Assembly (NCBI RefSeq): GCF_014696065.1
Contig: NZ_JACJPL010000015.1
Location: 1-64,000 of the forward strand
DNA from: Leptolyngbya sp. FACHB-261
GTDB lineage: Bacteria; Cyanobacteriota; Cyanobacteriia; FACHB-261
Length of the DNA stretch: 64,000 nucleotides
Direction of reading: 5' to 3'
The translations under genes were made by a program, and so were the position numbers. How positions within the stretch are numbered: the stretch's first letter is position 1; every line of letters begins with the position of its first letter. The notes beneath the pieces were generated by a model, which saw only the letters and a program-made list of their open reading frames with translations, made no database searches and had not been told where the DNA came from. Of the stretch, positions 4,633-21,858 are shown in pieces.

Positions 4633-4731
4633 CTCTGAGCTGAGTTGGCTCAGATATAAGCACCTAATCCGCCTTTTTTGCTCCAACTTTGACTGTTTGC
4701 ATTACGTTTTCAGCGACGAGGAAGTTTGTTT

Positions 4732-6459: not shown

Positions 6460-6571
6460 CCTGATTGAAGTGTTCTGTCGTCCGTTGGTTAGACGTGGCT
6501 GTTGGCGTCTTCAGGGCTGAGCACAGCCAGAGCACCCCGTTAGGATCCTCTCCTCAGCCCCCAAGTTCCCG

Positions 6572-7297
6572 ATGTCCATGCCTTTGCGCCCCCTGCAACT
6601 TCCCAGTGATCCGCGTTCCTACATCAGTGGGGATGTCACGGTAGATCCAAGTGTCGGGATTGCTCCGGGTGTCATGATTCAAGCGGCTCCCAATAGCCGG
6701 ATTGTGATCGCAGCAGGGGTTTGCATTGGTATGGGCTCGGTTTTGCATGCCCGTGAGGGCACGTTGGTCATTGAAGCGGGTGCGACCTTAGGGGCGGGGG
6801 TTTTGGTCGTTGGACAGAGCAAAATCGGCGCCAACGCCTGTATCGGCTCGGCCACTACGATCATCAACAGCTCAGTCGCAGCAGGCGAGGTGGTCCCACC
6901 GGGTTCGCTAATTGGCGATACCAGCCGTCAGCTCAAAGTGATAGCGCCTGTGGCCAATGGAGTTGTGGCCGCTGAGGTCATAGCTGATAAAGGGGCGTCT
7001 GCATCTCAGCCTTCGGAATCTCAGCCTTTAGAGCAATTAGAGCAAAAAGATTCCGAGCCAGAAGATGCTGATAGTTCTGACAGCTCTGACAACTCTGACA
7101 GTTCTTTGAATGGCACCGGACCGGCACCGACCCCAGCGCCCAAGCCTAATTCAGACCCTGAGAAAACTCCATCAGCACCTGAGGGCGCTCCTGCCCGCAA
7201 GGTCTATGGAGAAGACCACGTCAATCGAATCCTGGGCAAAATTTTTACCCATCGGCAGATCACCAGCCATACAACCAAGGACAATGAGTCATCCTAA
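6572..7297 (+). CDS. ccmN: Carboxysome adaptor protein CcmN
   Basis: 241 residues. The N-terminal ~120 residues are a hexapeptide-repeat beta-helix (GDVTVDPSVGIAPGVMI and similar turns) that binds CcmM. A long disordered Ser/Asp/Pro-rich linker follows (residues ~145-205). Near the C-terminus is an amphipathic encapsulation peptide, about residues 208-228, beginning KVYGEDHVNRILGKIF, which docks to CcmK shell protein. This three-part plan is diagnostic of CcmN, linking Rubisco/CcmM cargo to the shell. It lies 112 bp after ccmM. The peptide is followed by a short hydrophilic tail (HTTKDNESS), slightly longer than the peptide-terminated form I recall. Confidence 0.93.
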   Translation: MSMPLRPLQLPSDPRSYISGDVTVDPSVGIAPGVMIQAAPNSRIVIAAGVCIGMGSVLHAREGTLVIEAGATLGAGVLVVGQSKIGANACIGSATTIINSSVAAGEVVPPGSLIGDTSRQLKVIAPVANGVVAAEVIADKGASASQPSESQPLEQLEQKDSEPEDADSSDSSDNSDSSLNGTGPAPTPAPKPNSDPEKTPSAPEGAPARKVYGEDHVNRILGKIFTHRQITSHTTKDNESS

Positions 7298-7327
7298 GAG
7301 TGGAAGCTCGGTGGTACATGGGTCCAT

Positions 7328-8047
7328 ATGGAAAGCGCACTAGGGTTAGTTGAGACACGCAGTTTCCCAGCAATTGTGGGAACTGCTGACATGATGCTGA
7401 AGTCAGCAGGGGTCACGCTGGTTGGCTTTGAGAAGATTCGGAGCGGTTACTGCACCGCAATTGTAAGGGGCGGTATTGCTGACGTTCGCTTGGCAGTCCA
7501 AGCAGGAGCCGAGACTGCTGAGCAGTTCGGTCAGTTGGTTTCTACCTTGGTTATTCCCCGACCAATGCCCAACTTAGAAGTGGTTCTGCCCATCAATAGT
7601 CGCCTTTCCCAACTGGCTCAGACCCAGGGCTACTCACGGTTGAGCAATCATGCCATCGGTCTGCTGGAGACACGCGGCTTTCCAGCGATGGTAGGCGCTT
7701 CTGATGCCATGCTCAAGGCAGCAGATGTCGAGTTGATTGCCTACGAAACGATCGGCGATGCCCTATGCACGGCGATTATCCGAGGAACCGTGGCTAATGT
7801 GGCCGTGGCGGTGGAAGCAGGCATGTATGAAGCAGAACGCATCGGCGATTTGCATGCGGTGATGGTTATTCCCCGCCCTCTGGACGATCTCGATCAGGCT
7901 CTACCCGTAGCAGCTGCATGGCTGCAACAACAACCGCAACCTCTGACGATTCCCATGCCCGTCTTGCAACTCGAGCAAGAGAAAGAGCTGGTGCGGCTAC
8001 CCGAACTGGACCAAAAGTTACTCGATCCCGAAGGCCCAAGGCGTTAA
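7328..8047 (+). CDS. ccmO: Carboxysome shell protein CcmO (tandem BMC domains)
   Basis: 239 residues with two BMC domains, at about residues 3-95 (ALGLVETRSFPAIVGTADMM) and 107-200 (AIGLLETRGFPAMVGASDAM), then a Gln/Pro/Glu-rich tail. Two fused BMC domains form a pseudohexameric trimer at shell facets or edges; CcmO is essential for shell closure in model strains. It starts 30 bp after ccmN, so it is the last gene of a six-gene ccm operon. In some cyanobacteria ccmO lies elsewhere; here it is in place. Confidence 0.93.
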   Translation: MESALGLVETRSFPAIVGTADMMLKSAGVTLVGFEKIRSGYCTAIVRGGIADVRLAVQAGAETAEQFGQLVSTLVIPRPMPNLEVVLPINSRLSQLAQTQGYSRLSNHAIGLLETRGFPAMVGASDAMLKAADVELIAYETIGDALCTAIIRGTVANVAVAVEAGMYEAERIGDLHAVMVIPRPLDDLDQALPVAAAWLQQQPQPLTIPMPVLQLEQEKELVRLPELDQKLLDPEGPRR

Positions 8048-8403
8048 TTGGTATCGCTTAAGGAACTGACTTAGGGATATCAGTAAGTTGGCGGTTAATG
8101 GCTATAGCACAGAGCCGCTTTAGCCCAAGCTTCTCGTGTTTTAACAAACTAATACTGCTTAGGTTGTCAATTCCGATAATCTAAATTTCACCGCACTAAA
8201 TTGTATGGCTTAGATTGCACGATTAGAGCACTCTAATGCACACTTTAGTGCCCTTTGCATTTTCCGGTGGATAGTTCCCATTTCAACCGTTTGGCGTTAA
8301 TCTTAACAATAATAAAATTTTTGCTGTGGCCCTTCATTCTGCTTAACGGGGTCAGGGTCCTTGACAGCACCGAGTCAGCCTAGAGACGGCGAAGGTCAGG
8401 CGA
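8048..8403. promoter_or_regulatory. Intergenic region upstream of ndhF4
   Basis: About 355 bp, AT-rich from 8130 to 8330, with no gene and no clear intrinsic terminator after ccmO. The stretch GTTAATCTTAACAATAATAA near 8295-8315 is a plausible promoter or LysR-type target, but no consensus is met well enough to name a site. Confidence 0.4.
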
Positions 8404-10230
8404 ATGAATGATTTTTTTCTAGCAACTAGCGTGTGGGTTCCCTGTTATGGGCTCATAGGCGCTTTGTTGACTTTGCCGTGGGCAACTGGGGTAATCCGGC
8501 GAACCGGCCCGAGACCAGCAGCTTATTTCAATCTCTTGATGACCGTTTTGTCGCTGGTCCATAGCTCGATTCTGTTAAATGCAAGCTGGAACAAGCCGCC
8601 ACGATCGATCACGATTCCTTGGCTGCAAGCTGCGGACTTAAATCTGTCTTTTTCGCTAGAGATTTCGCAAGTTAGTACTGGGGCAACAGTAGTAGTCACG
8701 GGCTTAACCCTACTGGCTTTAATCTACGCCCTAGGTTCCATGGAGATGGATTGGGCGATGGCGCGTTTTTACGCGCTAATGGGATTTTTCGAATGCGCGA
8801 TGAGTGGTTTGGCCCTCAGCGACTCGCTGTTTTTGAGCTACGCCCTTCTAGAAATGCTCACCCTCTCGACTTACTTACTGGTGGGATTCTGGTATGCCCA
8901 ACCGTTAGTAGTCACAGCGGCTCGTGATGCCTTCTGGACTAAGCGAGTTGGCGATTTAATTTTGTTGATGGGTGTAGTGGCGCTTTCTACCCTGGCTGGC
9001 AGCTTAAACTTCTCTAGCTTGGCGGACTGGGCACAAACTGCAAACTTGTCTCCCTCGGTTGCAGCACTGCTCGGTTTAGCACTGATCGCAGGTCCGACAG
9101 GTAAATGTGCCCAATTCCCGCTGCACTTATGGCTGGACGAAGCGATGGAGGGGCCGAACCCAGCTTCAGTGTTGCGCAACTCGGTTGTTGTTGCTTGCGG
9201 TGCCTATCTGCTGATCAATCTCCAGCCCGTCTTGGCCCTTTCCCCCATAACTTCCATTGCTCTGTGTGTTCTGGGTGCCATGACAGCAGTTGGGGCTTCG
9301 CTAGTCGCTCTGGCCCAGATCGACCTCAAACGCGCCCTTTCCCACTCGACTAGCGCTTACATGGGGCTGGTGTTTCTGGCGGTAGGTTTGAATCAGCCGG
9401 AGATTGCCCTGCTGTTTTTGTTTACCCACGCCATCGCTAAAGCGCTTCTGTTCATGAGCACAGGCGCCGTCATCATGACGACGTTCACGCAGGATTTGAC
9501 CGAGATGGGCGGCTTAGGCGCTCGTATGCCTGTCACTACCACTGCTTATGTCGTTGGTGCAGCGGGTCTAGTAGCGCTCGTACCACTAGGCAGCTTCTGG
9601 TCGATGCTGCGCTGGGCAGATAGCGTTGGATCGGTTTCGCTATGGCTGGTGGCGGTGCTGCTACTGGTGAATGGCCTCACGGCCTTCAATTTGACTCGTG
9701 TGTTTGGTTTAGTATTCGCGGGGCCACCCAAGCCAAAAACCCGCCGTGCCCCAGAGGTGGCCTGGCCAGTCGCGCTGCCCTTGGTAACGCTAACTGTGAT
9801 TACGTTGCTGGTGCCCGTGATGCTGGCTCAGTGGCAACAGTTGCCACTGAGCACACTCAACTGGCCCGTGCTTGGGCTATTGGTGGCCTCAAGTGGCTTG
9901 GGTTGTGTAGTGGGCGCTGCGCTCTATCTCAACCCCGCAGTACCAAAGCCAGTCGCCGCCTGGGCCCCCTTACAAAACTTGTTAGCCTACGACTTCTATA
10001 TCGAACGTCTCTACCGTTTGAGTGTGGTCTTGTGGGTTAACCAAGGCTCTCGGTTAACATCCTGGATTGACCACTATCTGGTTGATGGGCTCGTTAATTT
10101 AGTGGGCCTGGTCTCAATTTTCAGCGGCGAAAGTTTGAAGTACACCTCGTCTGGTCGGTCCCAGCTCTACCTGCTGGTGGTGTTTCTAGGCGTCGTTATG
10201 CTAGGGGCCCTAGTGGGCTGGTCGTTTTAG
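8404..10230 (+). CDS. ndhF4: NDH-1 subunit NdhF4 (CO2-uptake NDH-1MS' complex)
   Basis: 608 residues, a polytopic antiporter-like proton-pumping subunit of photosynthetic complex I (NDH-1), with many hydrophobic segments. It contains the quinone-oxidoreductase/Mrp antiporter core (GPTGKCAQFPLHLWLDEAMEGP, LKRALSHSTSAYMGLVFLAVG). Shorter than respiratory NdhF1, as expected for the F3/F4 class. The following ndhD and cupB assign it to the constitutive CO2-uptake form, because the third gene is CupB-like. It would pair with NdhD4 in the distal membrane arm, where pumping is coupled to CO2 hydration by CupB. Confidence 0.88.
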   Translation: MNDFFLATSVWVPCYGLIGALLTLPWATGVIRRTGPRPAAYFNLLMTVLSLVHSSILLNASWNKPPRSITIPWLQAADLNLSFSLEISQVSTGATVVVTGLTLLALIYALGSMEMDWAMARFYALMGFFECAMSGLALSDSLFLSYALLEMLTLSTYLLVGFWYAQPLVVTAARDAFWTKRVGDLILLMGVVALSTLAGSLNFSSLADWAQTANLSPSVAALLGLALIAGPTGKCAQFPLHLWLDEAMEGPNPASVLRNSVVVACGAYLLINLQPVLALSPITSIALCVLGAMTAVGASLVALAQIDLKRALSHSTSAYMGLVFLAVGLNQPEIALLFLFTHAIAKALLFMSTGAVIMTTFTQDLTEMGGLGARMPVTTTAYVVGAAGLVALVPLGSFWSMLRWADSVGSVSLWLVAVLLLVNGLTAFNLTRVFGLVFAGPPKPKTRRAPEVAWPVALPLVTLTVITLLVPVMLAQWQQLPLSTLNWPVLGLLVASSGLGCVVGAALYLNPAVPKPVAAWAPLQNLLAYDFYIERLYRLSVVLWVNQGSRLTSWIDHYLVDGLVNLVGLVSIFSGESLKYTSSGRSQLYLLVVFLGVVMLGALVGWSF

Positions 10231-10247
10231 TGGAGCGAGATTGAGCA

Positions 10248-11744
10248 ATGCTAAGCCCCTTAATTTGGTCATCACTGCTAGGTGCCCTGCTGGTTGGCTT
10301 CCTACCAAGTTCGGTGAGCGCGAGCCGCTTACGACTGATCACTCTAGCCATTGCCAGTGGCACGTTTCTCTGGACGCTCTGGCTGATCACCCAATTCGAC
10401 CCCGGTAGTGCGGGCTTTCAGTTTGAGGAAGACCTGCCCTGGTTAGCCGCTTTGGGTCTGAGTTATCAGTTGGGTATCGACGGTCTGTCACTGCCGCTCG
10501 TGGCGCTGAACGGTCTGCTTGTTTGCATTGCTGTTTACAGCGGCGGTGAGGTACAAAGGCCTCGGTTTTATTACGCCCTGATTTTATTGCTCAGTGCTGG
10601 GGTGATCGGTGCCTTTCTGGCCCAAAACCTGCTGCTATTTTTTCTGTTTTACGAGCTAGAGCTGATTCCCCTGTATTTGCTGATTGCGATTTGGGGTGGC
10701 CCAAGACGGGGTTATGCAGCCACCAAGTTCTTGATTTACACGGCCGTCTCTGGTGTGTTGATCTTGGCAGCCTTCTTCGGGCTGGTTTGGCTCAGCGATT
10801 CCTCCACCTTCGACTATGGGCCGCTACGCAACCAGGTGTTGCCGCTAGGCAGTCAGATTGCCCTCTTGCTCACTCTGTTGGTTGGTTTCGGCATCAAGAC
10901 TCCGTTGGTTCCCCTGCATACCTGGTTACCGGATGCTCACGTTGAAGCCTCCACCCCAGTTTCTGTACTCCTGGCAGGGGTGCTCTTGAAGCTGGGAACT
11001 TATGGCTTGCTGCGCTTTGGCCTGGGGCTCTTTCCCGAGGCTTGGCAAGTGTTGGCGCCAGGGCTGGCAACCTGGGCTGTGGTCAGTGTCCTCTATGGTT
11101 GCTTTGCAGCAATTGTCCAGACGGACATGAAAAAGATGGTGGCTTACAGCTCCGTAGGCCACATGGGTTACATTTTGCTGGCCAGCGCGGCGGCAACACC
11201 GCTCAGCATTCTAGGCGCCACCTTTCAGATGGTGAGCCACGGCTTAATTTCGGCGCTGCTGTTTCTGTTGGTAGGCATTGTCTACCAAAAAGCAGGCACC
11301 CGGGATCTGAATCTACTCAACGGTTTGCTCAATCCGGAGCGGGGCTTACCAATCATCGGCAGTTTGATGGTAGTCGGCGTAATGGCTAGCGCAGGCATCC
11401 CTGGCATGGTCGGATTCATTTCTGAATTTCTGGTGTTCCGGGGCAGCTTTGTGGTGTTCCCCGTGCAAACCCTGCTGTGCATGATTGGGACTGGCCTGAC
11501 TGCGGTTTACTTCTTGATTTTGCTGAACCGAGCTTTCTTCGGTCGCCTGTCCGAACGAGTGGAAAGCCTGCCCCGCATTACCTGGTTTGAGCGGGCTCCA
11601 GCCTTGGTTTTGGCGGTTCTAATTGTTGTCTTAGGAATACAGCCCAATTGGGTGGTGCGGTGGAGTGAACCCACAACAACTGCCTTGCTGAGCCCAGGTC
11701 CTGTGATCACTCAATTACCTGCTGTTGAGATCCCCAAACTCTAA
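10248..11744 (+). CDS. ndhD4: NDH-1 subunit NdhD4
   Basis: 498 residues, NdhD/NuoM-type proton-pumping membrane subunit. Signature segments include YELELIPLYLLIAIWGG (membrane glutamate), GFGIKTPLVPLHTWLPDAHVEA and KKMVAYSSVGHMGYILLA. It starts 17 bp after ndhF4, and cupB follows 22 bp after its stop, so the three genes form one operon. The pairing with a CupB-type gene identifies the D4 class. It is clearly paralogous to the second ndhD at 17291. Confidence 0.88.
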   Translation: MLSPLIWSSLLGALLVGFLPSSVSASRLRLITLAIASGTFLWTLWLITQFDPGSAGFQFEEDLPWLAALGLSYQLGIDGLSLPLVALNGLLVCIAVYSGGEVQRPRFYYALILLLSAGVIGAFLAQNLLLFFLFYELELIPLYLLIAIWGGPRRGYAATKFLIYTAVSGVLILAAFFGLVWLSDSSTFDYGPLRNQVLPLGSQIALLLTLLVGFGIKTPLVPLHTWLPDAHVEASTPVSVLLAGVLLKLGTYGLLRFGLGLFPEAWQVLAPGLATWAVVSVLYGCFAAIVQTDMKKMVAYSSVGHMGYILLASAAATPLSILGATFQMVSHGLISALLFLLVGIVYQKAGTRDLNLLNGLLNPERGLPIIGSLMVVGVMASAGIPGMVGFISEFLVFRGSFVVFPVQTLLCMIGTGLTAVYFLILLNRAFFGRLSERVESLPRITWFERAPALVLAVLIVVLGIQPNWVVRWSEPTTTALLSPGPVITQLPAVEIPKL

Positions 11745-11766
11745 GACCCAATCTAAGCCTGCTACC

Positions 11767-12921
11767 ATGACCAGCATTATTCAGAAGCCTTCCACTCATC
11801 CCCTGGTCGATATTATTGAGCGTGTAGAATCGGGCGGAGCACTCCTACCCGATTCTGAAACTAACGTCATTGAAGTCGTCGGTGTGCTCAAGAGCTATGG
11901 CGTTGTGCTTGATGCTTATTGGCGTAATTTGATCTACGTCGCGCAGGAGCAATTTCTCAATCCTTTTCCCTTCTTCAAATACTTCAATGGTGAGCTCTCT
12001 CCGCAAAAATTACTGAAGCATTGGTGGCACGATCGCATCAATTACGAGCTTTCTGAGTATGTGATGAAATCCATGCTCTGGCATGGGGGTGGGGGTCTAG
12101 ATACTTATCTGGATTCGCCAGAGTTTAGCGAGCGAGCTCAGAAGGCAATTGAAGCCAAAATCAAAGCGAATTTACCGCTTCGAGGTTTAAGCCGTCTGTT
12201 TCCTGCTTTTCTCCTAGAGCAGGTTCGGCAGATGGCTTATTACAGTGTCTTGGGGCAGTTCTGGGAGGTGATGAGCCCTCTATTCCTTGATCTCTCAGAC
12301 CGCTACGACCGGGGTGAAATTCACACCATTCCTCAAGTCGTTGAGCACGTTTTGGCAGGTCTGGTTGCCGCAGCCAACAACCCCATTACCTATGCTGTAG
12401 AAATCGGCAACCAGAGCTACGAAATCATTCCTAAATCAGCAGGCTTAACTTTCCTAACAGATGCTGCTGTGCCCTATGTAGAAGCGGTGTTCTTTAAATC
12501 ATTTCCCTTTAGAGGCACCGTTTCTTACAATGCTCAAGCTCATCAAATCCCACAAGAGCAAAAGCAATTCAGTTACGGTGTTTTATACGCTGATCCGTTG
12601 CCCATTGGCTCAGCAGGCATTCCACCCACTCTACTGATGCAGGATTTGCGGCATTACTTGCCCAACTACTTGCACGCCTTGTATTGTCAAAGCCCACGCG
12701 GTGAGGACGATCTGCGTGTGCAGATTTGCGTGAGCTTTCAGAAGTCAATGTTTTGTGTGACTACGGCTGCTATTCTAGGCCTAGCTCCCTATCCGATCAC
12801 AACCTCTGACCCCACGCAGCAGCAGGCCAACCGGACCTATCTTGAAGGCTGGATGGATCGGTTATTAGACTCGCGCTTACCCGGCTTTCAGGTTTGCGAT
12901 TTGCGCGCTTGCGAGCTGTAG
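11767..12921 (+). CDS. cupB: CO2 hydration protein CupB (ChpX)
   Basis: 384 residues from ATG 11767; an upstream in-frame start at 11725 would overlap ndhD4. CupB is the soluble subunit that turns CO2 into bicarbonate on the NDH-1MS' complex. It lacks the ~40-residue insertion after the FFKYF motif that CupA carries, which separates the two types. The pattern H-W-W-H-D-R places H85 and R90 at the pair proposed for zinc binding in Cup proteins. Other matches are PFRGTVSYNAQAHQIP and ADPLPIGSAGIPPTLLMQD. An intrinsic terminator follows 45 bp downstream. Confidence 0.92.
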   Translation: MTSIIQKPSTHPLVDIIERVESGGALLPDSETNVIEVVGVLKSYGVVLDAYWRNLIYVAQEQFLNPFPFFKYFNGELSPQKLLKHWWHDRINYELSEYVMKSMLWHGGGGLDTYLDSPEFSERAQKAIEAKIKANLPLRGLSRLFPAFLLEQVRQMAYYSVLGQFWEVMSPLFLDLSDRYDRGEIHTIPQVVEHVLAGLVAAANNPITYAVEIGNQSYEIIPKSAGLTFLTDAAVPYVEAVFFKSFPFRGTVSYNAQAHQIPQEQKQFSYGVLYADPLPIGSAGIPPTLLMQDLRHYLPNYLHALYCQSPRGEDDLRVQICVSFQKSMFCVTTAAILGLAPYPITTSDPTQQQANRTYLEGWMDRLLDSRLPGFQVCDLRACEL

Positions 12922-12965
12922 CAAGTTTGAATTGAGTGTAAACACTCATGGTAGCATCTTAGACA

Positions 12966-13010
12966 AGCTGCTTCTGGCTCTCTTTCAGGAGGGCAGAAGC
13001 AGCTGTTTTT
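12966..13010 (+). terminator. Intrinsic terminator after cupB
   Basis: Perfect 11-bp arms AGCTGCTTCTG (12966-12976) and CAGAAGCAGCT (12994-13004), followed by GTTTTT. It ends the ndhF4-ndhD4-cupB unit, so sbtA needs its own promoter in 13011-13083. Confidence 0.9.
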
Positions 13011-13083
13011 GGTTTCGTACAAACTTGATCATTAGGCTCTTGATACATTTCTGTTTCAAAAATAGTGTGGAGGGAAGGCGGGC

Positions 13084-14067
13084 ATGGATGCAGGTCTGGA
13101 TTTCAGCTTAATCGCATCTAATATTCTGAATCCCCCGATTCTCTTTTTCTTTCTAGGAATGCTGGCTGTTCTTTTAAAGTCAGATCTGGAAATTCCTCAA
13201 CCTTTACCTAAACTCTTCTCGCTCTATCTCTTGTTTGCAATTGGCTTTAAGGGGGGCGTCGAGTTAGTTAAAAGTGGTATCAGCCAGGAAGTATCGCTGA
13301 CACTGGTCGCAGCAATTATCATGGCTTGTGTGGTGCCTATCTACACGTTCTTTATTCTGAAGCTCAGGCTCGATATCTATAATGCTGCGGCCATCGCTGC
13401 TACCTATGGCTCGATTAGCGCCGTCACCTTCATCACTGCTGGTGCCTTCCTCGACAAACTGGGCATCGAGTTTGACGGCTACATGGTGGCGGCCTTAGCC
13501 CTGATGGAGTCTCCTGCAATCATTGTTGGGCTGATTCTGGTGAAGTTAGCAACTAGCGACCAGGATGATCGCGAGTTCTCCTGGCCTGAGGTTTTGCAGG
13601 AAGCTTTTTTGAATGGTTCTGTGTTTCTGCTGGTCGGCAGTTTAGTGATCGGCATGCTCACTGGCGAGAACGGCTGGCGCACAATCTCTCCTTTTAGCCA
13701 GGAGATGTTTTACGGCGTCCTCACGTTTTTTCTGCTAGATATGGGTTTAGTAGCAGCGAAACGGATCAAAGACTTGCAGAAGACCGGTCCCTTTTTGATC
13801 GCGTTCGCCCTACTGATTCCGATTGTTAACGCAGGTATTGGGCTGGGCATCGCCAAGCTGATTAACATGCCACCTGGAGACGCGCTTTTGTTCGCGGTTC
13901 TTTGCGCCAGCGCTTCTTACATTGCTGTTCCAGCCGCAATGCGAATGACTGTTCCAGAGGCGAACCCAAGCCTATATGTTTCAACCGCTTTGGCCGTAAC
14001 CTTCCCCTTCAACATCATCATCGGTATCCCTCTATATCTGTACGGCATTAATATGTTCTGGAGATGA
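13084..14067 (+). CDS. sbtA: Sodium-dependent bicarbonate transporter SbtA
   Basis: 327 residues and about ten membrane segments. Matches to the SbtA family include NPPILFFFLGMLAVLLKSDLEIP, the GFKGGVELVKSG segment, YGSISAVTFITAGAFLD and ALMESPAIIVGLIL, and near the end ASASYIAVPAAMRM. SbtA is a high-affinity Na+/bicarbonate symporter of the plasma membrane. It is shorter than the ~370-residue Synechocystis form because the central cytoplasmic loop, here KLATSDQDDREFSWPEV, is reduced. AGGGAAGG precedes the ATG. sbtB follows after only 4 bp. Confidence 0.94.
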   Translation: MDAGLDFSLIASNILNPPILFFFLGMLAVLLKSDLEIPQPLPKLFSLYLLFAIGFKGGVELVKSGISQEVSLTLVAAIIMACVVPIYTFFILKLRLDIYNAAAIAATYGSISAVTFITAGAFLDKLGIEFDGYMVAALALMESPAIIVGLILVKLATSDQDDREFSWPEVLQEAFLNGSVFLLVGSLVIGMLTGENGWRTISPFSQEMFYGVLTFFLLDMGLVAAKRIKDLQKTGPFLIAFALLIPIVNAGIGLGIAKLINMPPGDALLFAVLCASASYIAVPAAMRMTVPEANPSLYVSTALAVTFPFNIIIGIPLYLYGINMFWR

Positions 14068-14071
14068 CAGT

Positions 14072-14386
14072 ATGCATGCAGCCAAAAGAATAGAGATTAT
14101 TGCCAATTCTGCTGAATTAGGCAAGATTTTAGATGGTTTAGAAAAAGCTAGTGTTTCGGGTTATCTAGTAATTCGCAATGTTGCAGGCAAAGGCTTGAGT
14201 GGTGATGCTCCTAGCGCTTTTGAAGCAACGATGTTAGACAACGCCTATGTGATCGCATTTTGTGCGCCGGAATCAGCAAAACCCGCACTGGAAGCTGTCA
14301 GACCTATTCTCAATAAGTTTGGGGGTAGCTGTTTTATTTCTGACGCAATGGAAGTTGGTTCGATGCGTTGCGTTGCGTCACTTTAA
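14072..14386 (+). CDS. sbtB: PII-like regulator SbtB
   Basis: 104 residues, a PII-like ferredoxin-fold protein (AAKRIEIIANSAELGKILDGL, VSGYLVIRNVAGKGL, DNAYVIAFC). SbtB binds adenyl nucleotides, including cAMP, and regulates SbtA at the membrane. The C-terminus is ...GSMRCVASL: the CGPEGC-type redox loop known in Synechocystis SbtB is absent, so this is the shorter, non-R-loop type. Directly downstream of sbtA, and its stop is fused to the AAGGAGG ribosome site of the carbonic-anhydrase gene (14385-14391), which implies translational coupling of all three. Confidence 0.88.
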   Translation: MHAAKRIEIIANSAELGKILDGLEKASVSGYLVIRNVAGKGLSGDAPSAFEATMLDNAYVIAFCAPESAKPALEAVRPILNKFGGSCFISDAMEVGSMRCVASL

Positions 14387-14402
14387 GGAGGCTAGTTAAT
14401 CA

Positions 14403-15119
14403 ATGGTCTGGAGTCGTCCCTCGATCAGTCGTCGAGAGTTCTTAAAACTGGCAGAGATAGGAGGCGTGGGTCTGGTAGCGGCGGCAGTTGGACTTGGCCC
14501 TAGCCAACCCAGCCAAGCAGCTGACCTCAAGCCCAATCCCACTTCTCCGGCATCCGAGACAGCCCTCAAGCGTCTGCTTGAGGGCAACCAGCGTTTCGTT
14601 CGACATCGGCTCAGACATCCAGACCAGTCCCTAGCTCGTTTGCGAGAAGTAGCCCAATCTCAGCACCCGTTTGCGACCATTCTGAGCTGTGCCGACTCGC
14701 GGGTCGCCGCGGAAATTGTCTTTGACCAGGGCTTAGGCGATCTGTTCGACGTTCGGGTCGCTGGTAATATTGTCACGCCTGAAGTTGTTGGCAGCCTAGA
14801 GTATGCCGCAGCCCTACTCGAGACCCCCCTGCTCATGGTTTTGGGTCATGAGCGGTGTGGTGCTGTGACCGCAGCTGTTCAAGGTGAACGCCTGCCAGGC
14901 CAAGTAGGCAGCTTTGTGAAAGCGATCAAGCCAGCCTTGGCTCAGGTCAAAGGCAAAGCTGGGGACCCGGTTGACAACGCTGTGGTCGCCAACATCCAGT
15001 ATCAAATCAAACGGCTACAGCAAACCTCACCCCTGCTGAAGCAACTGAGTAAGGATGGCAAGCTGGCTATTGTGGGCGCCCGTTACGACCTTGATACCGG
15101 CGCAGTGGCTCTCGTTTAG
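14403..15119 (+). CDS. Tat-exported beta-carbonic anhydrase, copy 1 (sbtAB-linked)
   Basis: 238 residues. The N-terminus has a twin-arginine signal: S-R-R-E-F-L-K with R10/R11, a Gly/Ala/Val-rich hydrophobic stretch and a likely cleavage after PSQA near residue 39. The mature domain is a beta-class carbonic anhydrase with C96, D98 and R100 (CADSR) and H149/C152 (HERCGAV) as Zn and catalytic-dyad residues. It should work outside the cytoplasm, in periplasm or thylakoid lumen, interconverting CO2 and bicarbonate. It lacks the C-terminal part of carboxysomal CcaA, so it is not that enzyme. Last gene of sbtA-sbtB-CA, followed by a hairpin terminator. The only comparison I recall is periplasmic EcaB. 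Confidence 0.9.
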   Translation: MVWSRPSISRREFLKLAEIGGVGLVAAAVGLGPSQPSQAADLKPNPTSPASETALKRLLEGNQRFVRHRLRHPDQSLARLREVAQSQHPFATILSCADSRVAAEIVFDQGLGDLFDVRVAGNIVTPEVVGSLEYAAALLETPLLMVLGHERCGAVTAAVQGERLPGQVGSFVKAIKPALAQVKGKAGDPVDNAVVANIQYQIKRLQQTSPLLKQLSKDGKLAIVGARYDLDTGAVALV

Positions 15120-15230
15120 CACAGCTCCTCGCTACGGCAAAACCATGTTTTAGCCAAGACCTAATCCAAGCCCCTACTGCCTGAAGCAGGTTTTGGTACC
15201 CCAACTCCGAACAGCTCAACCCCAATAAAC

Positions 15231-15258
15231 AAGGCTCATCGGGTCGATGAGCCTTATT
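15231..15258 (+). terminator. Hairpin terminator after the first carbonic anhydrase gene
   Basis: Perfect 11-bp arms AAGGCTCATCG (15231-15241) and CGATGAGCCTT (15245-15255) with a 3-nt loop, followed by ATTAATAT. The T-run is weak but the hairpin is strong. Confidence 0.75.
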
Positions 15259-15453
15259 AATATCTCAAGTATTCAAATTTTCGTATTTTTGAGTATATGA
15301 TTACTTCAGGATTTGGAAGACCTGCGCAGTCGAGATTGGCTCGGTCATAAGTTCTTGGCCCCCTGGTCATTTGCGAGGGCGCACAGCGCTTCTGTACCTA
15401 TTTAAAGGTTCGAGTCCGAAAGTTCAAGTCTGAAGTTTCAAGGGCAGTTCTCA
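15256..15453 (+). promoter_or_regulatory. Upstream region of the ndhF3 operon with degenerate repeats
   Basis: This region must hold the promoter of the NDH-1MS operon. Directly before the gene are three degenerate 13-14-bp tandem units (GTTCGAGTCCGAAA, GTTCAAGTCTGAA, GTTTCAAGG; about 15408-15442). The first resembles a tRNA T-loop, but no tRNA can be folded. An AT-rich imperfect inverted repeat (TATTCAAA near 15268 and TTTGAGTA near 15289) could be a regulator site. I do not see the TCAATG-N10-ATCAAT box reported for NdhR/CcmR. Confidence 0.4.
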
Positions 15454-17277
15454 ATGGCTCAGTTCTTTCTCCAGACTGTCTGGTTGATTCCCAGCTACGC
15501 ACTCATCGGCGCCGTGCTGGCTCTACCCTGGTCCCCGGCGGTGATTCGCCGCACAGGACCCCGGCCATCCGGCTATGTCAATTTGTTCATGACCAGTCTG
15601 GCCTTACTTCACGGCTTGTTGGCTCTATCTGCGCTGTGGGGTCAACCGCCACACACCCTCTCGTTTTCCTGGTTAGAAGTTGCCGGTTTACATCTGACTT
15701 TCGATCTGAAAATCTCAGCGCTCACGGTTGGCGCCACGGTTCTCATCGCTGGGCTGAATCTACTCGCTCAGTTATTTGCAGTTGGCTACCTAGAGATGGA
15801 CTGGGGCTGGGCACGCTTCTACTCACTTATGGCCCTATTTGAGGCCGGCATGTGTGCCCTGGTGCTCTGCGATTCACTGTTCTTCAGCTACATCTTCCTA
15901 GAGATTCTGACTCTGGGGACCTATTTGCTGGTTGGCTACTGGTTCTCGCAACCCCTGGTGGTCACAGGCGCGCGGGACGCCTTTCTAACCAAGCGGGTTG
16001 GCGACCTCGTGCTGCTGATGGGCGTTCTGGCGCTGCTGCCTCTGGCTGGAACCTGGAATTTTTCAGAGCTTGCAGTGTGGGCGCAAACCGCCAATCTAGA
16101 ACCTAGAACCGCTACGCTACTGGGTCTAGCGCTGATTGCAGGACCGATGGGCAAGTGCGCTCAGTTTCCCCTACAGCTTTGGCTTGACGAAGCCATGGAA
16201 GGCCCAGTTCCTTCCTCTATCTTGCGTAACTCGGTTGTGGTTGCCACAGGCGCTTGGGTCTTGGTGAAGTTGGAGCCTGTTTTGGCTCTATCGCCGGTGG
16301 TCATGGCAACTTTGGTATTCATTGGTGCCTTGACTGCAGTTGGCGCTGCCCTGATTGCCATCGCTCAGGTCGATGTGAAGCGGGCACTGTCTTACTCGGT
16401 GAGTTCCTTCATGGGTCTGGTGTTCGTTGCAGTGGGCACGGGGCAAACAGAGGTTGCTCTCCTGTTGGTCTTTACCCACGCCATTGCCCAAGCACTCTTG
16501 TTCATGAGCATTGGTGCTGTGGTCTGGAACAGCATCACTCAGGATCTACGGCAATATGGCGGTCTTTGGTCCCGTCGCCCGATCTCAGGCATCGGCTTCG
16601 TGGTTGGTGCTGCAACTCTAGTGGGTTTACTGCCGCTGGGTAGCTTCTGGCCCATGGTCGAGTTGCTCAACCATTTCTGGACTACTGAACCCTGGTTAGC
16701 GGCTTTGGTGCTGCTGGTCAATGGTCTTACCGCTTTTAGCTTGACTCGCGTCTTTGGTCTGATTTTCGGTGGCCCGACCAAAGTAATGAGTTCACGCTCA
16801 CCAGAAGTGGCTTGGCCCATGATGCTGCCTTTGACACTGATGACCGGTTTTGCGCTGCACGTACCCCTGGTTCTGGCACAGTGGCAACTGCTACCAGCAT
16901 GGTCAACGCTCGACTGGTCTTTGACAACAGCTCTCGCGGTGACAGGCGCACTTGGTTGTGGCTTGGCCGGCGTACTTTATCTGCCGGGACGGCCTGAGTC
17001 GATTCAATTTGGTTCCAAGTCGTTCCAAGAGTTCTTTGCTTACGACTTTTACATTCAGCGCATTTACCGTGTGAGCGTAGTTGGCCTGGTCGATGTCCTG
17101 TCCCGGTTTGTGTCTTGGGTCGACCACTACCTGGTGGATGGCGTGGTCAATTTCACGGGCCTAGCGACCATTTTCAGCGGTCAAGTTCTGCGCTACAGCG
17201 TTTCTGGGCTCTCCCAGGTTTACATCCTGGCAATTCTGCTGGGCATGTTGTTGGTCGGTCTTCTGGTGATGCAGTAA
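15454..17277 (+). CDS. ndhF3: NDH-1 subunit NdhF3 (inducible CO2-uptake NDH-1MS complex)
   Basis: 607 residues, paralogous to the ndhF at 8404 along the whole length: same IRRTGPRPSGY start region, QFPLQLWLDEAMEGPVPSSILRN and VKRALSYSVSSFMGLVFVAVG. As the antiporter-like subunit of the low-CO2-inducible NDH-1MS complex it would pump protons in the distal arm next to NdhD3. The assignment to the F3 class rests on the CupA-type gene two places downstream. ndhD3 begins 13 bp after its stop. Confidence 0.88.
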   Translation: MAQFFLQTVWLIPSYALIGAVLALPWSPAVIRRTGPRPSGYVNLFMTSLALLHGLLALSALWGQPPHTLSFSWLEVAGLHLTFDLKISALTVGATVLIAGLNLLAQLFAVGYLEMDWGWARFYSLMALFEAGMCALVLCDSLFFSYIFLEILTLGTYLLVGYWFSQPLVVTGARDAFLTKRVGDLVLLMGVLALLPLAGTWNFSELAVWAQTANLEPRTATLLGLALIAGPMGKCAQFPLQLWLDEAMEGPVPSSILRNSVVVATGAWVLVKLEPVLALSPVVMATLVFIGALTAVGAALIAIAQVDVKRALSYSVSSFMGLVFVAVGTGQTEVALLLVFTHAIAQALLFMSIGAVVWNSITQDLRQYGGLWSRRPISGIGFVVGAATLVGLLPLGSFWPMVELLNHFWTTEPWLAALVLLVNGLTAFSLTRVFGLIFGGPTKVMSSRSPEVAWPMMLPLTLMTGFALHVPLVLAQWQLLPAWSTLDWSLTTALAVTGALGCGLAGVLYLPGRPESIQFGSKSFQEFFAYDFYIQRIYRVSVVGLVDVLSRFVSWVDHYLVDGVVNFTGLATIFSGQVLRYSVSGLSQVYILAILLGMLLVGLLVMQ

Positions 17278-17290
17278 GCGGAGAGTATCA

Positions 17291-18889
17291 ATGCTGAGTA
17301 CGTTGGTCTGGCTACCGATCCTCGGGGCCGCAGTGGTGGGCTTAATTCCTAATTCGACGCAAGTCAGCACTAAAGCAGCTCGATGGCTGGCACTAGCGAT
17401 TGCTACAGGTCTAGTCATTTGGACCCTGCTCCTGATGAGCCGTTTCGACCCCAGCAGTAGTGGCCTACAGTTTCAAGAAGCGTTGCCCTGGCTGGAGTCT
17501 CTGGGCTTGACCTATTCGCTGGGGGTGGATGGTCTCTCACTGCCCTTGCTGGCATTGAGCAGCTTGCTGACCTGGATCGTAATTTACCGAGGTGACGCGA
17601 ACCTGGAGCGTCCTCGGCTGTTCTACGCCATGACCTTTCTGGCCAACGCTGGTATTGCTGGGGCCTTTATGGCTCAGAACTTGCTGCTGTTCTTCTTGTT
17701 CTACGAGCTAGAACTTATTCCGCTCTATTTGCTGATCGCGATTTGGGGTGGGGCTAAGCGCGAATATGCTGCGACTAAGTTTCTGCTCTACACCGCAGTG
17801 TCTGGCGTCCTGATTTTGGTGGCCTCTCTGGGACTGACCTGGTTGACCGGCGCCTCAACCTTTGACTATGCAGCTGTGCAAGGCCACACTCTCTCACTGG
17901 ACAAGCAGTTGATCTTGCTGGTGCTCTTCGTGGTGGGCTTTGGCATCAAGATTCCGCTGGTTCCCTTCCACACCTGGTTACCAGATGCCTACGTTGAAGC
18001 CTCGACGCCAGTCGCCATTTTGCTGGGCGGTATCCTTGCCAAGCTAGGCACCTACGGTCTGCTGCGTTTCGGCATGGGCTTGCTGCCCGATGCCTGGGGT
18101 ACCTTGGCACCATCACTGGCCGTGTGGGGCACGGTGAGTGTTCTGTATGGCGCATTGACAGCAATTGCCCAGAAAGACATCAAGCGCATGGTGGCCTACA
18201 GCTCAGTTGGACATATGGGCTATGTGTTGCTGGCGAGCGCGGCACTTACCCCTTTAAGTCTGGTGGGTGCTGTTAGCCAAATGGTCAGCCACGGTCTGAT
18301 CCTGGCGCTCTTGTTCCATCTGGTTGGGGTGATCGAAACTAAGGTTGGCACCCGAGAGCTGGATGTGCTCAACGGCTTGATGAGCCCAATTCGTGGCTTA
18401 CCCCTGACCGCAGCCCTATTGGTGCTAGGCGGCATGGCCAGTGCGGGCATTCCTGGCTTGGTGGGTTTTATTTCGGAGTTCCTGGTGTTCCAGGGTAGCT
18501 ATAGCGTGTTTCCAGGGCTAACGCTACTGTGCATTGTCGGTTCTGGTCTAACAGCGGTCTATTTCGTGATCATGCTGAACCGCACTTGTTTCGGCAGGTT
18601 GGACAACGCTCACGCTTACTACCCTCAAGTTCAGTTCTCTGAGAATTTACCCTCGTTGATTCTGGTTGCTCTGATCATCTTTTTGGGGATTCAACCCACT
18701 TGGCTGGTGCGCTGGAGTGAACCGATTGCTGCTGCCTTGGTTGCCAACGTACCGGTTATCAGCTCTGAACAAGTTGCTCGCAATCTAGACTTCAGTCCGC
18801 AAGCAATTTCAGCAGCGTTGACTCCCGATCTGAGAGGATCTGAATCCCACTTTTCTAAGCTGAGTTCTGACTCTCAGCAAGCTCTTTGA
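17291..18889 (+). CDS. ndhD3: NDH-1 subunit NdhD3
   Basis: 532 residues, an NdhD-type pump subunit with YELELIPLYLLIAIWGG, GFGIKIPLVPFHTWLPDAYVEA and KRMVAYSSVGHMGYVLLA. It is ~34 residues longer than the paralogue at 10248, through a hydrophilic C-terminal tail (ARNLDFSPQAISAAL onward to SDSQQAL). With NdhF3 and CupA it forms the high-affinity CO2-uptake complex on thylakoids. cupA follows after 65 bp. Confidence 0.88.
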   Translation: MLSTLVWLPILGAAVVGLIPNSTQVSTKAARWLALAIATGLVIWTLLLMSRFDPSSSGLQFQEALPWLESLGLTYSLGVDGLSLPLLALSSLLTWIVIYRGDANLERPRLFYAMTFLANAGIAGAFMAQNLLLFFLFYELELIPLYLLIAIWGGAKREYAATKFLLYTAVSGVLILVASLGLTWLTGASTFDYAAVQGHTLSLDKQLILLVLFVVGFGIKIPLVPFHTWLPDAYVEASTPVAILLGGILAKLGTYGLLRFGMGLLPDAWGTLAPSLAVWGTVSVLYGALTAIAQKDIKRMVAYSSVGHMGYVLLASAALTPLSLVGAVSQMVSHGLILALLFHLVGVIETKVGTRELDVLNGLMSPIRGLPLTAALLVLGGMASAGIPGLVGFISEFLVFQGSYSVFPGLTLLCIVGSGLTAVYFVIMLNRTCFGRLDNAHAYYPQVQFSENLPSLILVALIIFLGIQPTWLVRWSEPIAAALVANVPVISSEQVARNLDFSPQAISAALTPDLRGSESHFSKLSSDSQQAL

Positions 18890-18954
18890 TCACCGCTCAT
18901 TACTGCATCCGTATCGAAACAATCACCATCGCAAAGCATTATTGAGGAACTGCC

Positions 18955-20253
18955 ATGACCGCAACTGTCATTCAAGCTAGTCCGACTAAATTGCCACCCT
19001 CAAAGCATGAGTTTGCTGAAGTCATTCACCGCCTAGAAGCAGGCGGTGCCATGTTGCCCGACACGCCCGAGAACCTCATGCAGATCATTGGCTTGTACAA
19101 AGCCTATGCGGTGCCAATGGATTTCTACTGGCGCGACCTGCTCTACATTGCTGAGCATGTGTTTTTGGAGCCCTTGCCCTTCTTCAAATACTTCTTGCCC
19201 AAGGAATATCTGGAGCGCCATAATCACTACGCGGGCGATGATGCTGATTTGCGCGTTTGGCGTGGGCCAGCCACCGCTCACCCAGAACTTCTGGCTTTCA
19301 TGGAGAAGGGCGAAACCTTCAAAATGCCTAGGTTTCTCCATCACCTCTGGCATGACCGGATCAACATGGAGTTTGCTGAAGAATGTATGCGTTCGATGCT
19401 CTGGCACCGAGGCATGGGCGGGCAATTTGATCCCTATTTAGACAGCGAAGAGTACAAGGCTAATGCTGACCGGGCAATCCGGGCCTATTTTAAGTACAAC
19501 CCAGTGATGTTGGGGCTGTACAAGCTGTTTCCAGATATGTTCTTGGAACAGGTGCGGCAGTTATCGTATTACAGCAATTTGGGCCTGTTCTGGGAAGTCA
19601 TGGCCCCAGTCTTCTTCGAGATGTCCGATCGTTACGATGAAGGCACAATTACGACTGTGCCCGAGGCGATGGACTTCTTAGTGAACGGGATCTTCGCCAT
19701 CGCTGGTCGGCCTATTTATCATCACGTTTATATTCGCGGCGAGTGCTACGAGATCATCCCGAAATCGAAGGGATTCACCTGGCTATACGAAGCGGCTCTA
19801 CCCTACGTTGAAGCAGTTTTCTATCGCACTTCCCCCTTTCGGGGCACCAAATCTTACAATGCCCAGGCAGGACAGGTACCTGACGAGCAGAAAGATTTCC
19901 ACTACGGTATTCTCTACGCTGACGTGTTTCCAGTTGGCACCGCAGGGATTCCGCCAACATTGCTGATGCAGGATATGCTGCATTTTCTACCGCCCTATCT
20001 GGTGGACTATTACAAGCAGCATTGCCGGGGCGAAGACGACATGCTGATCCAATTGGGCGTTAGTTTTCAGCGCTCAATGTACTGTGTTACCTCAGCTGTG
20101 ATTCAAGCCTTGCGCACAGCTTTGCTCTATCCCCTAGATGATCCCAATCCCAAACATTTGATGGCGAATCGAGCCTTCTTTGAAGCTCAAATGGACCGTT
20201 TTAAAAGGCCTGAGGCACGCCTGCGCGACATTCAAAGCCAGGACTATCGATAG
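18955..20253 (+). CDS. cupA: CO2 hydration protein CupA (ChpY)
   Basis: 432 residues. It carries the insertion that marks CupA against CupB (residues ~81-125, FLPKEYLERHNHYAGDDADLRVWRG). H130 and R135 in HLWHDR match, with the same numbers, the pair I recall being proposed as the zinc site in the NDH-1MS structure. Other family matches are SPFRGTKSYNAQAGQVP and YADVFPVGTAGIPPTLLMQD. It sits on the cytoplasmic face of NDH-1MS and hydrates CO2 using proton pumping to drive the direction. GAGGAAC lies just before the ATG. A beta-carbonic anhydrase gene follows after 68 bp. Confidence 0.94.
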   Translation: MTATVIQASPTKLPPSKHEFAEVIHRLEAGGAMLPDTPENLMQIIGLYKAYAVPMDFYWRDLLYIAEHVFLEPLPFFKYFLPKEYLERHNHYAGDDADLRVWRGPATAHPELLAFMEKGETFKMPRFLHHLWHDRINMEFAEECMRSMLWHRGMGGQFDPYLDSEEYKANADRAIRAYFKYNPVMLGLYKLFPDMFLEQVRQLSYYSNLGLFWEVMAPVFFEMSDRYDEGTITTVPEAMDFLVNGIFAIAGRPIYHHVYIRGECYEIIPKSKGFTWLYEAALPYVEAVFYRTSPFRGTKSYNAQAGQVPDEQKDFHYGILYADVFPVGTAGIPPTLLMQDMLHFLPPYLVDYYKQHCRGEDDMLIQLGVSFQRSMYCVTSAVIQALRTALLYPLDDPNPKHLMANRAFFEAQMDRFKRPEARLRDIQSQDYR

Positions 20254-20262
20254 ACAAGACGA

Positions 20263-20315
20263 TTGACCTTAACCAGAATGTGGGAGAGTTGACCTTAACC
20301 AGAAATGTGGGAGAG
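20263..20315 (+). repeat. Tandem 26/27-bp repeat in the leader of the second carbonic anhydrase gene
   Basis: TTGACCTTAACCAGAATGTGGGAGAG (20263-20288) is followed directly by a second copy with one extra A (20289-20315). Each copy holds a GGGAGAG ribosome-site-like motif, so the leader has a duplicated ribosome site; only the second is at a good distance from ATG 20322. Confidence 0.9.
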
Positions 20316-20321
20316 GTGATT

Positions 20322-21053
20322 ATGAGTCGAGTGAATGGCTTTATTGGCCGCCGAGAGCTTTTGAAAGCGGTTGGTTTGGGTGGAGCTGGATTTGCCGTTG
20401 CTACTGGGGGTCTGTTGTGGACTGCACAACAGGCTCTTGAGCCCGAACCCGCCAATGCCCAGCAGAGACCACGGCCTGTGGATCCTGACGCATCCTTGAA
20501 AAGGATGATGGATGGCAATCAACGGTTCGTTCAGCAAAAGCGCGCCAGCCCCAATCAATCTCAACTCCGTTTGCAGGAGACTGCACAAGCCCAATATCCA
20601 TTCGCTGCGATGCTGAGTTGCGCGGATTCGCGGGTTCCCTCTGAGATTGTTTTCGACCAGGGAGTTGGTGACCTATTTGTCGTTCGGGTTGCCGGTAATG
20701 TTGTCACGCCTGAAACTATCGGCAGCCTTGAATTCTCCTCAGCTGTTTTGGGTTCTCAGCTAATCATGGTTCTCGGTCATGAACGCTGTGGAGCTGTAGC
20801 AGCAGCGGTCAAAGGCGACCCACTGCCAGGTCGCATTGGTTCGTTCGTTGAAACGATCAAACCTGCTGTTGAACGAGTCAGAGGTCGTCCGGGCGATGCC
20901 GTAGAGAATGCAGTCATTGCCAATGTTCAATATCAAGTTTCCCTGTTGAAGGAAAACTCTGTAATTCTGGCTCAGTTAATTCGAGATGGCAAACTAAAAA
21001 TTGTGGGCGGTCGTTACGATTTGGATACTGGAGAGGTGCGCATCATAGCTTGA
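20322..21053 (+). CDS. Tat-exported beta-carbonic anhydrase, copy 2 (cupA-linked)
   Basis: 243 residues from ATG 20322, chosen over an in-frame GTG at 20280 because the latter lies in the tandem repeat and because GGGAGAGG precedes 20322. The twin-arginine signal is G-R-R-E-L-L-K (R10/R11), then a Gly/Ala-rich core and a likely cleavage near PANA, residue 46. The catalytic domain is beta-class with C100, D102, R104, H153 and C156. Roughly 60% identical by eye to the copy at 14403, with matching gene position after a CO2-uptake module. Expected location is periplasm or thylakoid lumen. It ends the ndhF3-ndhD3-cupA unit before a terminator. Confidence 0.9.
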   Translation: MSRVNGFIGRRELLKAVGLGGAGFAVATGGLLWTAQQALEPEPANAQQRPRPVDPDASLKRMMDGNQRFVQQKRASPNQSQLRLQETAQAQYPFAAMLSCADSRVPSEIVFDQGVGDLFVVRVAGNVVTPETIGSLEFSSAVLGSQLIMVLGHERCGAVAAAVKGDPLPGRIGSFVETIKPAVERVRGRPGDAVENAVIANVQYQVSLLKENSVILAQLIRDGKLKIVGGRYDLDTGEVRIIA

Positions 21054-21120
21054 GGCAAGCCGCAAAGGCGCAAGCTTGTAGAAGAGCCAATTCTCCAAAG
21101 AGGTTTCCCTGTGGCTCCTG

Positions 21121-21152
21121 GTAGGGTAGAAGTTATCTACCCTACTCTTTTT
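21121..21152 (+). terminator. Intrinsic terminator after the second carbonic anhydrase gene
   Basis: Perfect 10-bp arms GTAGGGTAGA (21121-21130) and TCTACCCTAC (21136-21145) with a 5-nt loop, followed by TCTTTTT. A second inverted repeat, ACACATTCTG (21191-21200) and CAGAATGTGT (21218-21227), lies between here and the convergent fasciclin gene and may serve that side. Confidence 0.92.
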
Positions 21153-21260
21153 GCTAAGTTTTTTGCTTGCTGAGTCTTTCTGAAAGGCGTACACATTCTG
21201 ACGACTTATGGCATTGCCAGAATGTGTAATTTGGATCTAGCTGTTCGCTCCAGAACAGCG

Positions 21261-21662
21261 TTATCCCATGAGAATCACTGTATCTAAAACATGAATAATG
21301 CCGTTATCTGCTTCGATATCGGCAGCAACAACCGTGGCATTTTTGACTTCGAACCCATCTGTCGTGTCGATTCGAATCGGTGAACCTTCAACCGAAGTGA
21401 CAGAATCAACCTTAGCAAGGTCAGCCTGACTGAGCTTGCCCGACACCACGTGATATTTCAGAATTCGGGTGAGCTGAGGAATATTTTGTAGCAGAGTTTG
21501 AATAGTGCCCGGTGGTAACTTGGCAAATGCCTCATCATTGGGGGCAAAAACAGTAAAGGGACCAGGGCTTTTTAGGGTGTCTACCAAACCAGCAGCTTGT
21601 ACTGCTGCCACCAACGTTTGAAAAGAGCCAGCCCCAACTGCAATATCTACAATGTCAGCCAT
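21261..21662 (-). CDS. cupS: Fasciclin-domain protein, probable CupS
   Basis: 133 residues from ATG 21662, which gives the family's usual MADIVD start; an ATG at 21710 would add 16 residues. A single FAS1 domain is visible: [46 protein letters not shown] and the closing [15 protein letters not shown]. In Synechocystis the fourth gene of the ndhF3-ndhD3-cupA operon is CupS, a fasciclin-like subunit of NDH-1MS. Here such a gene lies at the end of the same cluster but on the opposite strand, so the name rests on family plus neighbourhood. Other small fasciclin proteins of unknown role exist in cyanobacteria. Confidence 0.72.
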
Positions 21663-21858
21663 GTGTTCAGCTCGCTTCGGATCAAATGATGAAACAGGAT
21701 CTAGGATCATCGTAGATCTTGTTTTTCTATTTGTTAAGTTTGGCTTAATTCGCCACGGTCATAGTTCTTTTTCTAGGTAAGGGAATGCTGGAACGACCAG
21801 GTAGAGCCTGCCGAATTTGATAGGATCCCTCTCAACCCTTGTGCAATAGCCTGCTCCT

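Follow-up and report, generated by a model that had tools for sequence, protein, structure and literature searches.

Twin-arginine-type beta-carbonic anhydrases encoded in the bicarbonate and CO2 uptake operons of Leptolyngbya sp. FACHB-261 and other cyanobacteria

Organization of the carbon uptake island

The analysed stretch of DNA, referred to below as the window, comprises 64,000 nucleotides of a contig of Leptolyngbya sp. FACHB-261 and is a part of a genome of 6.95 Mb. It contains a 16-kb CO2-concentrating island (4726-21053) that combines carboxysome genes with the genes for NDH-1MS', SbtAB and NDH-1MS. The island starts with ccmM, ccmN and a ccmO-like gene (4726-8047), which are followed by three units on the plus strand: (i) ndhF4-ndhD4-cupB (8404-12921), (ii) sbtA-sbtB-CA1 (13084-15119), and (iii) ndhF3-ndhD3-cupA-CA2 (15454-21053), where CA1 and CA2 stand for two genes of beta-carbonic anhydrases (CAs) and for their products.

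The first unit is of the NDH-1MS' type and consists of ndhF (8404-10230), ndhD (10248-11744), and a gene for a CupB-like ChpXY protein of 384 aa (11767-12921). It is separated from sbtA by a plus-strand hairpin with a T-run (12962-13015; -28.5 kcal/mol, z -4.95). The second unit encodes the Na+/bicarbonate symporter SbtA (13084-14067, 327 aa; PF05982, Sbt_1, E 7e-128), which is 76-84% identical to SbtA of many cyanobacteria, and, 4 bp from sbtA, the PII-like regulator SbtB (14072-14386, 104 aa; PF00543, P-II, E 4e-10). Its last gene is CA1 (14403-15119, 238 aa; PF00484, TIGR01409), which follows sbtB after a gap of 16 bp, and the unit likely ends at a strong hairpin 3' of CA1 on the same strand (15222-15270; -17.1 kcal/mol, z -6.0). 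The third unit encodes NdhF3 (15454-17277, 607 aa; TIGR01960, 938.9 bits, cut-off 588.7), NdhD3 (17291-18889, 532 aa; NF005611, 814.4 bits, cut-off 764), and the CO2 hydration protein CupA, or ChpY (18955-20253, 432 aa; TIGR01964, 786.9 bits, cut-off 293.7; ChpXY, E 1e-168), which is 81-91% identical to CupA in other genomes. The last gene of this unit is CA2 (20322-21053, 243 aa; PF00484); its likely start is an ATG at 20322, 68 bp past cupA, with a GTG at 20280 as the alternative, and a plus-strand hairpin with a T-run behind it is the likely end of the unit (21112-21156; -19.1 kcal/mol, z -4.0). The positions of the two CA genes, the profile matches of their neighbors and the hairpin behind each unit thus bear out the original prediction, made from the sequence of the window, that one CA gene closes sbtA-sbtB and the other closes ndhF3-ndhD3-cupA.

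A gene for a CupS-like fasciclin-domain protein (21261-21710, minus strand, 149 aa; PF02469, E 8e-40) is convergent with CA2. This gene is inverted in the window; at four other loci (L140, L153, L201 and L204) the homologous gene is co-oriented with cupA and immediately follows it. A similar neighborhood of sbtAB-CA, cupB-ndhD4-ndhF4 and ccm genes is found in Nostoc and Komarekiella (loci L160, L164 and L172). Upstream of sbtA and ndhF3 there is no clear match to the CcmR/NdhR box (TCAATG-N10-ATCAAT), and a promoter scan gave no more sites than were obtained with shuffled sequence.

CA1 and CA2 as beta-carbonic anhydrases

Both proteins belong to the beta-CAs, a known enzyme class, and are predicted to be active. 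They match Pfam family Pro_CA (PF00484) with 129.8 bits for CA1 and 131.5 bits for CA2 (cut-off 25.7), and score 158.6 and 158.3 bits with the CA subfamily model NF011765 of NCBIfam, below its cut-off of 221. The motifs CADSR and HERCG, described in the original prediction as intact active sites, are present in both proteins; across 21 aligned relatives, the zinc ligands C100, H153 and C156, the dyad D102-R104 (CA2 numbering) and the twin arginine of the N-terminus are all invariant. An AlphaFold2 model of CA1 has a mean pLDDT of 78.7, with values above 90 over 115 core residues and low values only in the signal region. Its best match in the PDB is 2a5v (TMq 0.74, TMt 0.87, 41% identity), which establishes the beta-CA fold. 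This protein, Rv3588c of Mycobacterium tuberculosis (2a5v, 1ym3; profile E 1.5e-51), is the closest solved structure, and we know of no tie between it and carbon uptake operons.

The carboxysomal beta-CA CcaA (5swc) has the same fold as CA1 at 25-29% identity; however, CcaA-type proteins lack a Tat-type N-terminus, whereas CA1 and CA2 both carry twin-arginine (RR) signals. The host genome encodes two further beta-CAs, neither with an RR N-terminus, and one of these is a CcaA-like protein, encoded elsewhere in the genome (C26).

Export signals

The N-terminal motifs are SRREFLK in CA1 and GRRELLK in CA2, in agreement with the signal pattern originally proposed; behind these motifs both proteins have an uncharged stretch and then an A-x-A-like site (PSQA-A and PANA-Q, respectively). 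The curated Tat-signal models gave a mixed outcome: CA1 exceeds the cut-off of the curated model TIGR01409 (22.0 against 16.7 bits), whereas CA2 matches only TIGR02811 among the Tat-signal models, with 20.4 bits against a cut-off of 48.45, and does not conform to the Tat consensus in the position preceding RR. A TatC protein is encoded in the host genome (G000:C31:124538-125152, E 8e-63).

To compare the whole family, we defined the signature as RR followed by an uncharged stretch of 11 residues near the N-terminus. It was found in 70 of 70 sbt-linked, 34 of 35 ndhF3-linked, 5 of 5 cmp-linked and 69 of 71 unlinked members, the one ndhF3-linked copy without it being a gene cut by a contig end. 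The same signature was found in none of 13 other beta-CAs and in 6.4% of background ORFs (n=1182). We infer from these N-termini that CA1 and CA2 are exported from the cytoplasm; RR signals read alike for the periplasm and the thylakoid lumen, and the compartments proposed below are conditional.

The linked groups differ in two further features of their proteins. Most sbt-linked CAs are acidic (58 of 69 have pI below 7, median 5.4), and their residue before RR is nearly always Gly, Glu or Asp; most ndhF3-linked CAs are basic (28 of 35 have pI of at least 7, median 8.7) and nearly always have Ser at this position. This contrast might reflect different compartments. As a clue to the compartments of the two CAs in the window, pI was dropped, since CA1 is basic (pI 9.0) in spite of its linkage to sbtAB.

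Linkage of carbonic anhydrases to carbon importers

We surveyed 390 cyanobacterial genomes and found a homologue of these CAs in 158 of them. Of the best 150 sbtA loci, 62, from 12 families, are followed, never preceded, by a CA gene on the same strand at a distance of up to 2.5 kb; of the best 150 cupA loci, 29, from 10 families and including the window, have a co-oriented CA gene no more than 8 kb away. By chance, the expected number of these sbtA loci with a CA gene directly downstream on the same strand is about 0.04, and the corresponding number for the cupA loci is about 0.26. The family counts carry more weight than these ratios because each list is limited to its best 150 loci and related genomes are not independent. 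The median gaps are operon-like: 72 bp for sbtB to CA (n=70), 171 bp for ndhF3 to CA (n=31), and 145 bp for CA to ndhD3 (n=33). In a second genome collection, sbt-linked copies were found in Nostoc, Scytonema NIES-4073, Calothrix PCC 7716 and Nodosilinea PCC 7104, and ndhF3-linked copies in Microcystis, Fischerella PCC 7414, Microcoleus and Westiellopsis.

The proposed tie between an exported-type CA and each of the two importers therefore recurs far beyond the window, and at least 10 of the 390 surveyed genomes have both linkages together. The two arrangements fared differently. The sbtAB-CA order is widespread; the linkage of CA to NDH-1MS recurs as well, but in another position than in the window. 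Elsewhere the CA gene lies upstream of cupA, in most cases with ndhF3 on one side and ndhD3 on the other, and it represents a CA lineage distinct from that of CA2. Among the best 150 cupA loci, a CA gene directly behind cupA was found only in the genome of the window. This singular order is what could suggest chance, or hitch-hiking of a mobile CA gene within lineages. Such an explanation is highly improbable in view of observed counts that exceed expectation by two to three orders of magnitude, and it is contradicted by the trees and the AU test given below, by which the linkage to importers arose several times.

The CA is not an obligatory partner of these importers, as 88 of the best 150 sbtA loci and most of the best 150 cupA loci lack a linked copy, and 71 of 193 distinct family members have no linkage to the tested importers. 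Other importers also have CA neighbors. A CA gene lies between cmpB and cmpC at three loci (L159, L248 and L249) and next to a cmpA-like gene at a fourth (L254), the only loci with Cmp-type neighbors. The NCBIfam models label these proteins as nitrate ABC transporters; at L159, L248 and L249 we prefer their identification as bicarbonate (Cmp) transporters because of the linked CA and the presence of ccm and cupB genes around the L249 locus, though they may be nitrate transporters. A copy behind cupB was found in Chamaesiphon (locus L208). At L251 (5556-9731), the neighbors of the CA gene encode a P-II protein, a Na+/H+ exchanger and an Sbt_1 transporter that is divergent, with 23% identity to SbtA; these genes perhaps form a second kind of bicarbonate uptake operon.

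Further members occur in various contexts. At L120, L124, L163 and other Nostocales loci, a LivF-type ABC ATPase gene and a hisZ-like gene are located upstream of an unlinked CA gene; identification of the ATPases beside stand-alone CA copies as CmpC or CmpD was rejected, the Nostocales one being LivF-type and a matter of local synteny. In one genus (L129, L132 and L133), atpB and an epsilon-like gene of ATP synthase are followed, two to three genes later and in the same orientation, by the CA gene. At L150 (G202:C1:1106507-1107136), L151 (G249:C230) and G068:C26:27637, the CA domain forms the C-terminal end, in frame, of ORFs of 555-562 aa; the ORFs at L150 and L151 open with a histidine-kinase-like stretch (RHELCTPI) and have lost the RR signal, so these may be CAs fused to a signalling protein. 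Homologues outside cyanobacteria were found in Pseudovibrio and in Gemmatimonadetes, Acetothermia and Fibrobacterota bins (L228, L232, L234, L236 and L238), of which L232 has an RR signal.

Repeated recruitment of carbonic anhydrases

In a tree of 183 members, 68 of the 69 sbt-linked rows form one lineage, and the copies between ndhF3 and ndhD3 mostly form another. A smaller tree of 84 members places all 27 sbt-linked rows on one side of a branch with a support of only 72/23, and requires 10 changes of neighbor for six groups, the minimum possible being 5. The CA2 of the window groups with unlinked copies, as a sister to the sbt lineage, and its placement inside the clade of the copies between ndhF3 and ndhD3 was rejected by the AU test (p 0.00018). 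Hence, CA2 entered the cupA operon independently of those copies. The copies within cmpABCD have two origins. The trees thus imply several recruitments of CA to carbon importers. That recruitment was repeated with importers that are functionally equivalent and unrelated argues most strongly for selection of the pairing itself, and co-selection of CA with importers is strongly supported by these comparisons.

The same data bear on the explanation that only regulation is shared: CA genes may sit in operons induced at low CO2, and their products may be general external CAs that buffer the periplasm and recapture CO2 for all importers. The proportion of unlinked members, the unrelated syntenies in Nostocales and the recruitment to four importers, which fits a single general role, all speak for it. 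Nevertheless, we consider it rather unlikely, since the sbt-linked copies form one lineage in both trees, since linkage has been kept over 12 families, longer than co-regulation alone usually lasts, and since SbtA and NDH-1MS are probably located in different membranes.

Comparison with known systems

The order of transporter and PII-like genes in the window is that of the known sbtA-sbtB system, to which the window adds a Tat-type CA directly after sbtB. According to a 2026 commentary, no protein other than SbtB and now SbtC is known in SbtA-dependent transport (PMC13360264). Likewise, ndhF3, ndhD3 and cupA have the same order as in the ndhF3-ndhD3-cupA-cupS operon of NDH-1MS; the CA gene is an addition to it, placed between ndhF3 and ndhD3 in most relatives and behind cupA in the window. 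In the open-access literature, we found no description of a CA gene within the sbtAB, ndhF3-ndhD3-cupA or cmpABCD operons, and a CA that repeatedly accompanies carbon importers as a third component seems to be new.

The nearest precedent is EcaB (slr0051) of Synechocystis PCC 6803, compared here by its published description only, which like CA1 and CA2 is a beta-CA located outside the carboxysome and has a leader. A hypothetical lipoprotein site has been described for EcaB, whereas CA1 and CA2 have no Cys within the N-terminal 50 residues. One survey calls ecaB scattered, and we found no report of it in an importer operon, in contrast to the CA genes of the window. The original prediction took EcaB to be periplasmic. 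This view has been superseded by recent reviews, according to which most of the protein is found at the thylakoid, interacts with CupA and CupB, and through them is tied to CO2 uptake by NDH-1MS and NDH-1MS' (PMC10096703, PMC9283085). By analogy, EcaB provides independent evidence that such an enzyme may matter for NDH-1MS, although the CupA/CupB side does not fit the lumen: this contact speaks against a lumenal CA2 because CupA and CupB face the cytoplasm, beyond direct reach from the lumen.

The reported aid of EcaB to CO2 hydration suggests that CA1 and CA2, too, could be attached to the thylakoid at its cytoplasmic face and act together with CupA or CupB, the RR N-terminus being an anchor rather than an export signal. 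We regard this as improbable. The RR and the uncharged stretch are nearly invariant and have A-x-A-like sites behind them, the linkage to SbtA and Cmp would be left unexplained, and at the cytoplasmic face a CA would deplete the bicarbonate pool, which makes it harmful at low CO2 (PMC6981117). Since a cytoplasmic CA ruins this pool, an active CA that is induced together with importers would be expected outside the cytoplasm.

Proposed function

Starting from what was directly established for this CA family, i.e., its genes, motifs, fold, operon positions, linkage to three types of importer operons and repeated recruitment, we propose, with a probability of about 0.6, that CA1 and CA2 are Tat-exported beta-CAs, each serving from outside the cytoplasm the importer with which it is transcribed. 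Export would keep an active CA from short-circuiting the cytoplasmic bicarbonate pool. CA1 would reside in the periplasm beside SbtA and hold CO2 and bicarbonate at equilibrium while SbtA removes bicarbonate; CO2 that comes in or has leaked would be hydrated and then imported as bicarbonate. Against this role, S. elongatus supplied with an external CA, of the alpha class, reportedly showed no discernible effect (PMC11360081).

For NDH-1MS, a cryo-EM structure revealed a non-polar tunnel in NdhF3 that connects the lumenal side with the CupA site (Schuller 2020, PMC6981117). CA2 would be located where this tunnel opens into the thylakoid lumen. Acid there favors dehydration of bicarbonate, and the enzyme would keep CO2 flowing to the CupA site, CupA hydrating it on the cytoplasmic side. 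This role presupposes a source of bicarbonate in the lumen, a requirement that counts against it. A functional analogue is CAH3, the lumenal alpha-CA of Chlamydomonas, which forms CO2 from bicarbonate in the acid lumen; it belongs to another CA class without homology to CA2, and serves the pyrenoid or PSII and not an NDH-1 complex.

CA2 might instead act on lumenal pH or on PSII, as proposed for CAH3 (PMC10814762), and NDH-1MS does pump protons into the lumen. Such buffering is nonetheless a very unlikely function, as the linked partners are carbon importers only, among them SbtA and CmpABCD of the plasma membrane, and no PSII genes were found at the loci examined. A broader form of the proposed supply of carbon by exported CAs is put forward tentatively and with considerable doubt: SbtA, NDH-1MS and BCT1 of many beta-cyanobacteria may share a dedicated Tat-exported beta-CA as a third, extracytoplasmic module. 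In NDH-1MS this module would be lumenal and supply CO2 to the NdhF3 tunnel; the lumen would then be the CO2 source of the complex, and lumenal protons and bicarbonate would take part in the uptake cycle.

Significance

Both the cytoplasm and the thylakoid lumen are under consideration as the source of CO2 for NDH-1MS (PMC10096703, PMC13249358), and external CAs of cyanobacteria have so far had no defined role. A conserved exported-type CA in the SbtA, NDH-1MS and CmpABCD operons bears on this role, and the linked CAs supply genes, organisms (Nostoc, Fischerella and Microcystis) and single-gene deletions with which both the CO2 source and the function of external CAs can be tested. The finding is also relevant to the transfer of SbtA or NDH-1MS into crops, from which the CA partner has so far been omitted. 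The recurrence of the pairing across many families suggests that bicarbonate and CO2 importers of cyanobacteria work with a built-in enzyme on the opposite side of the membrane.
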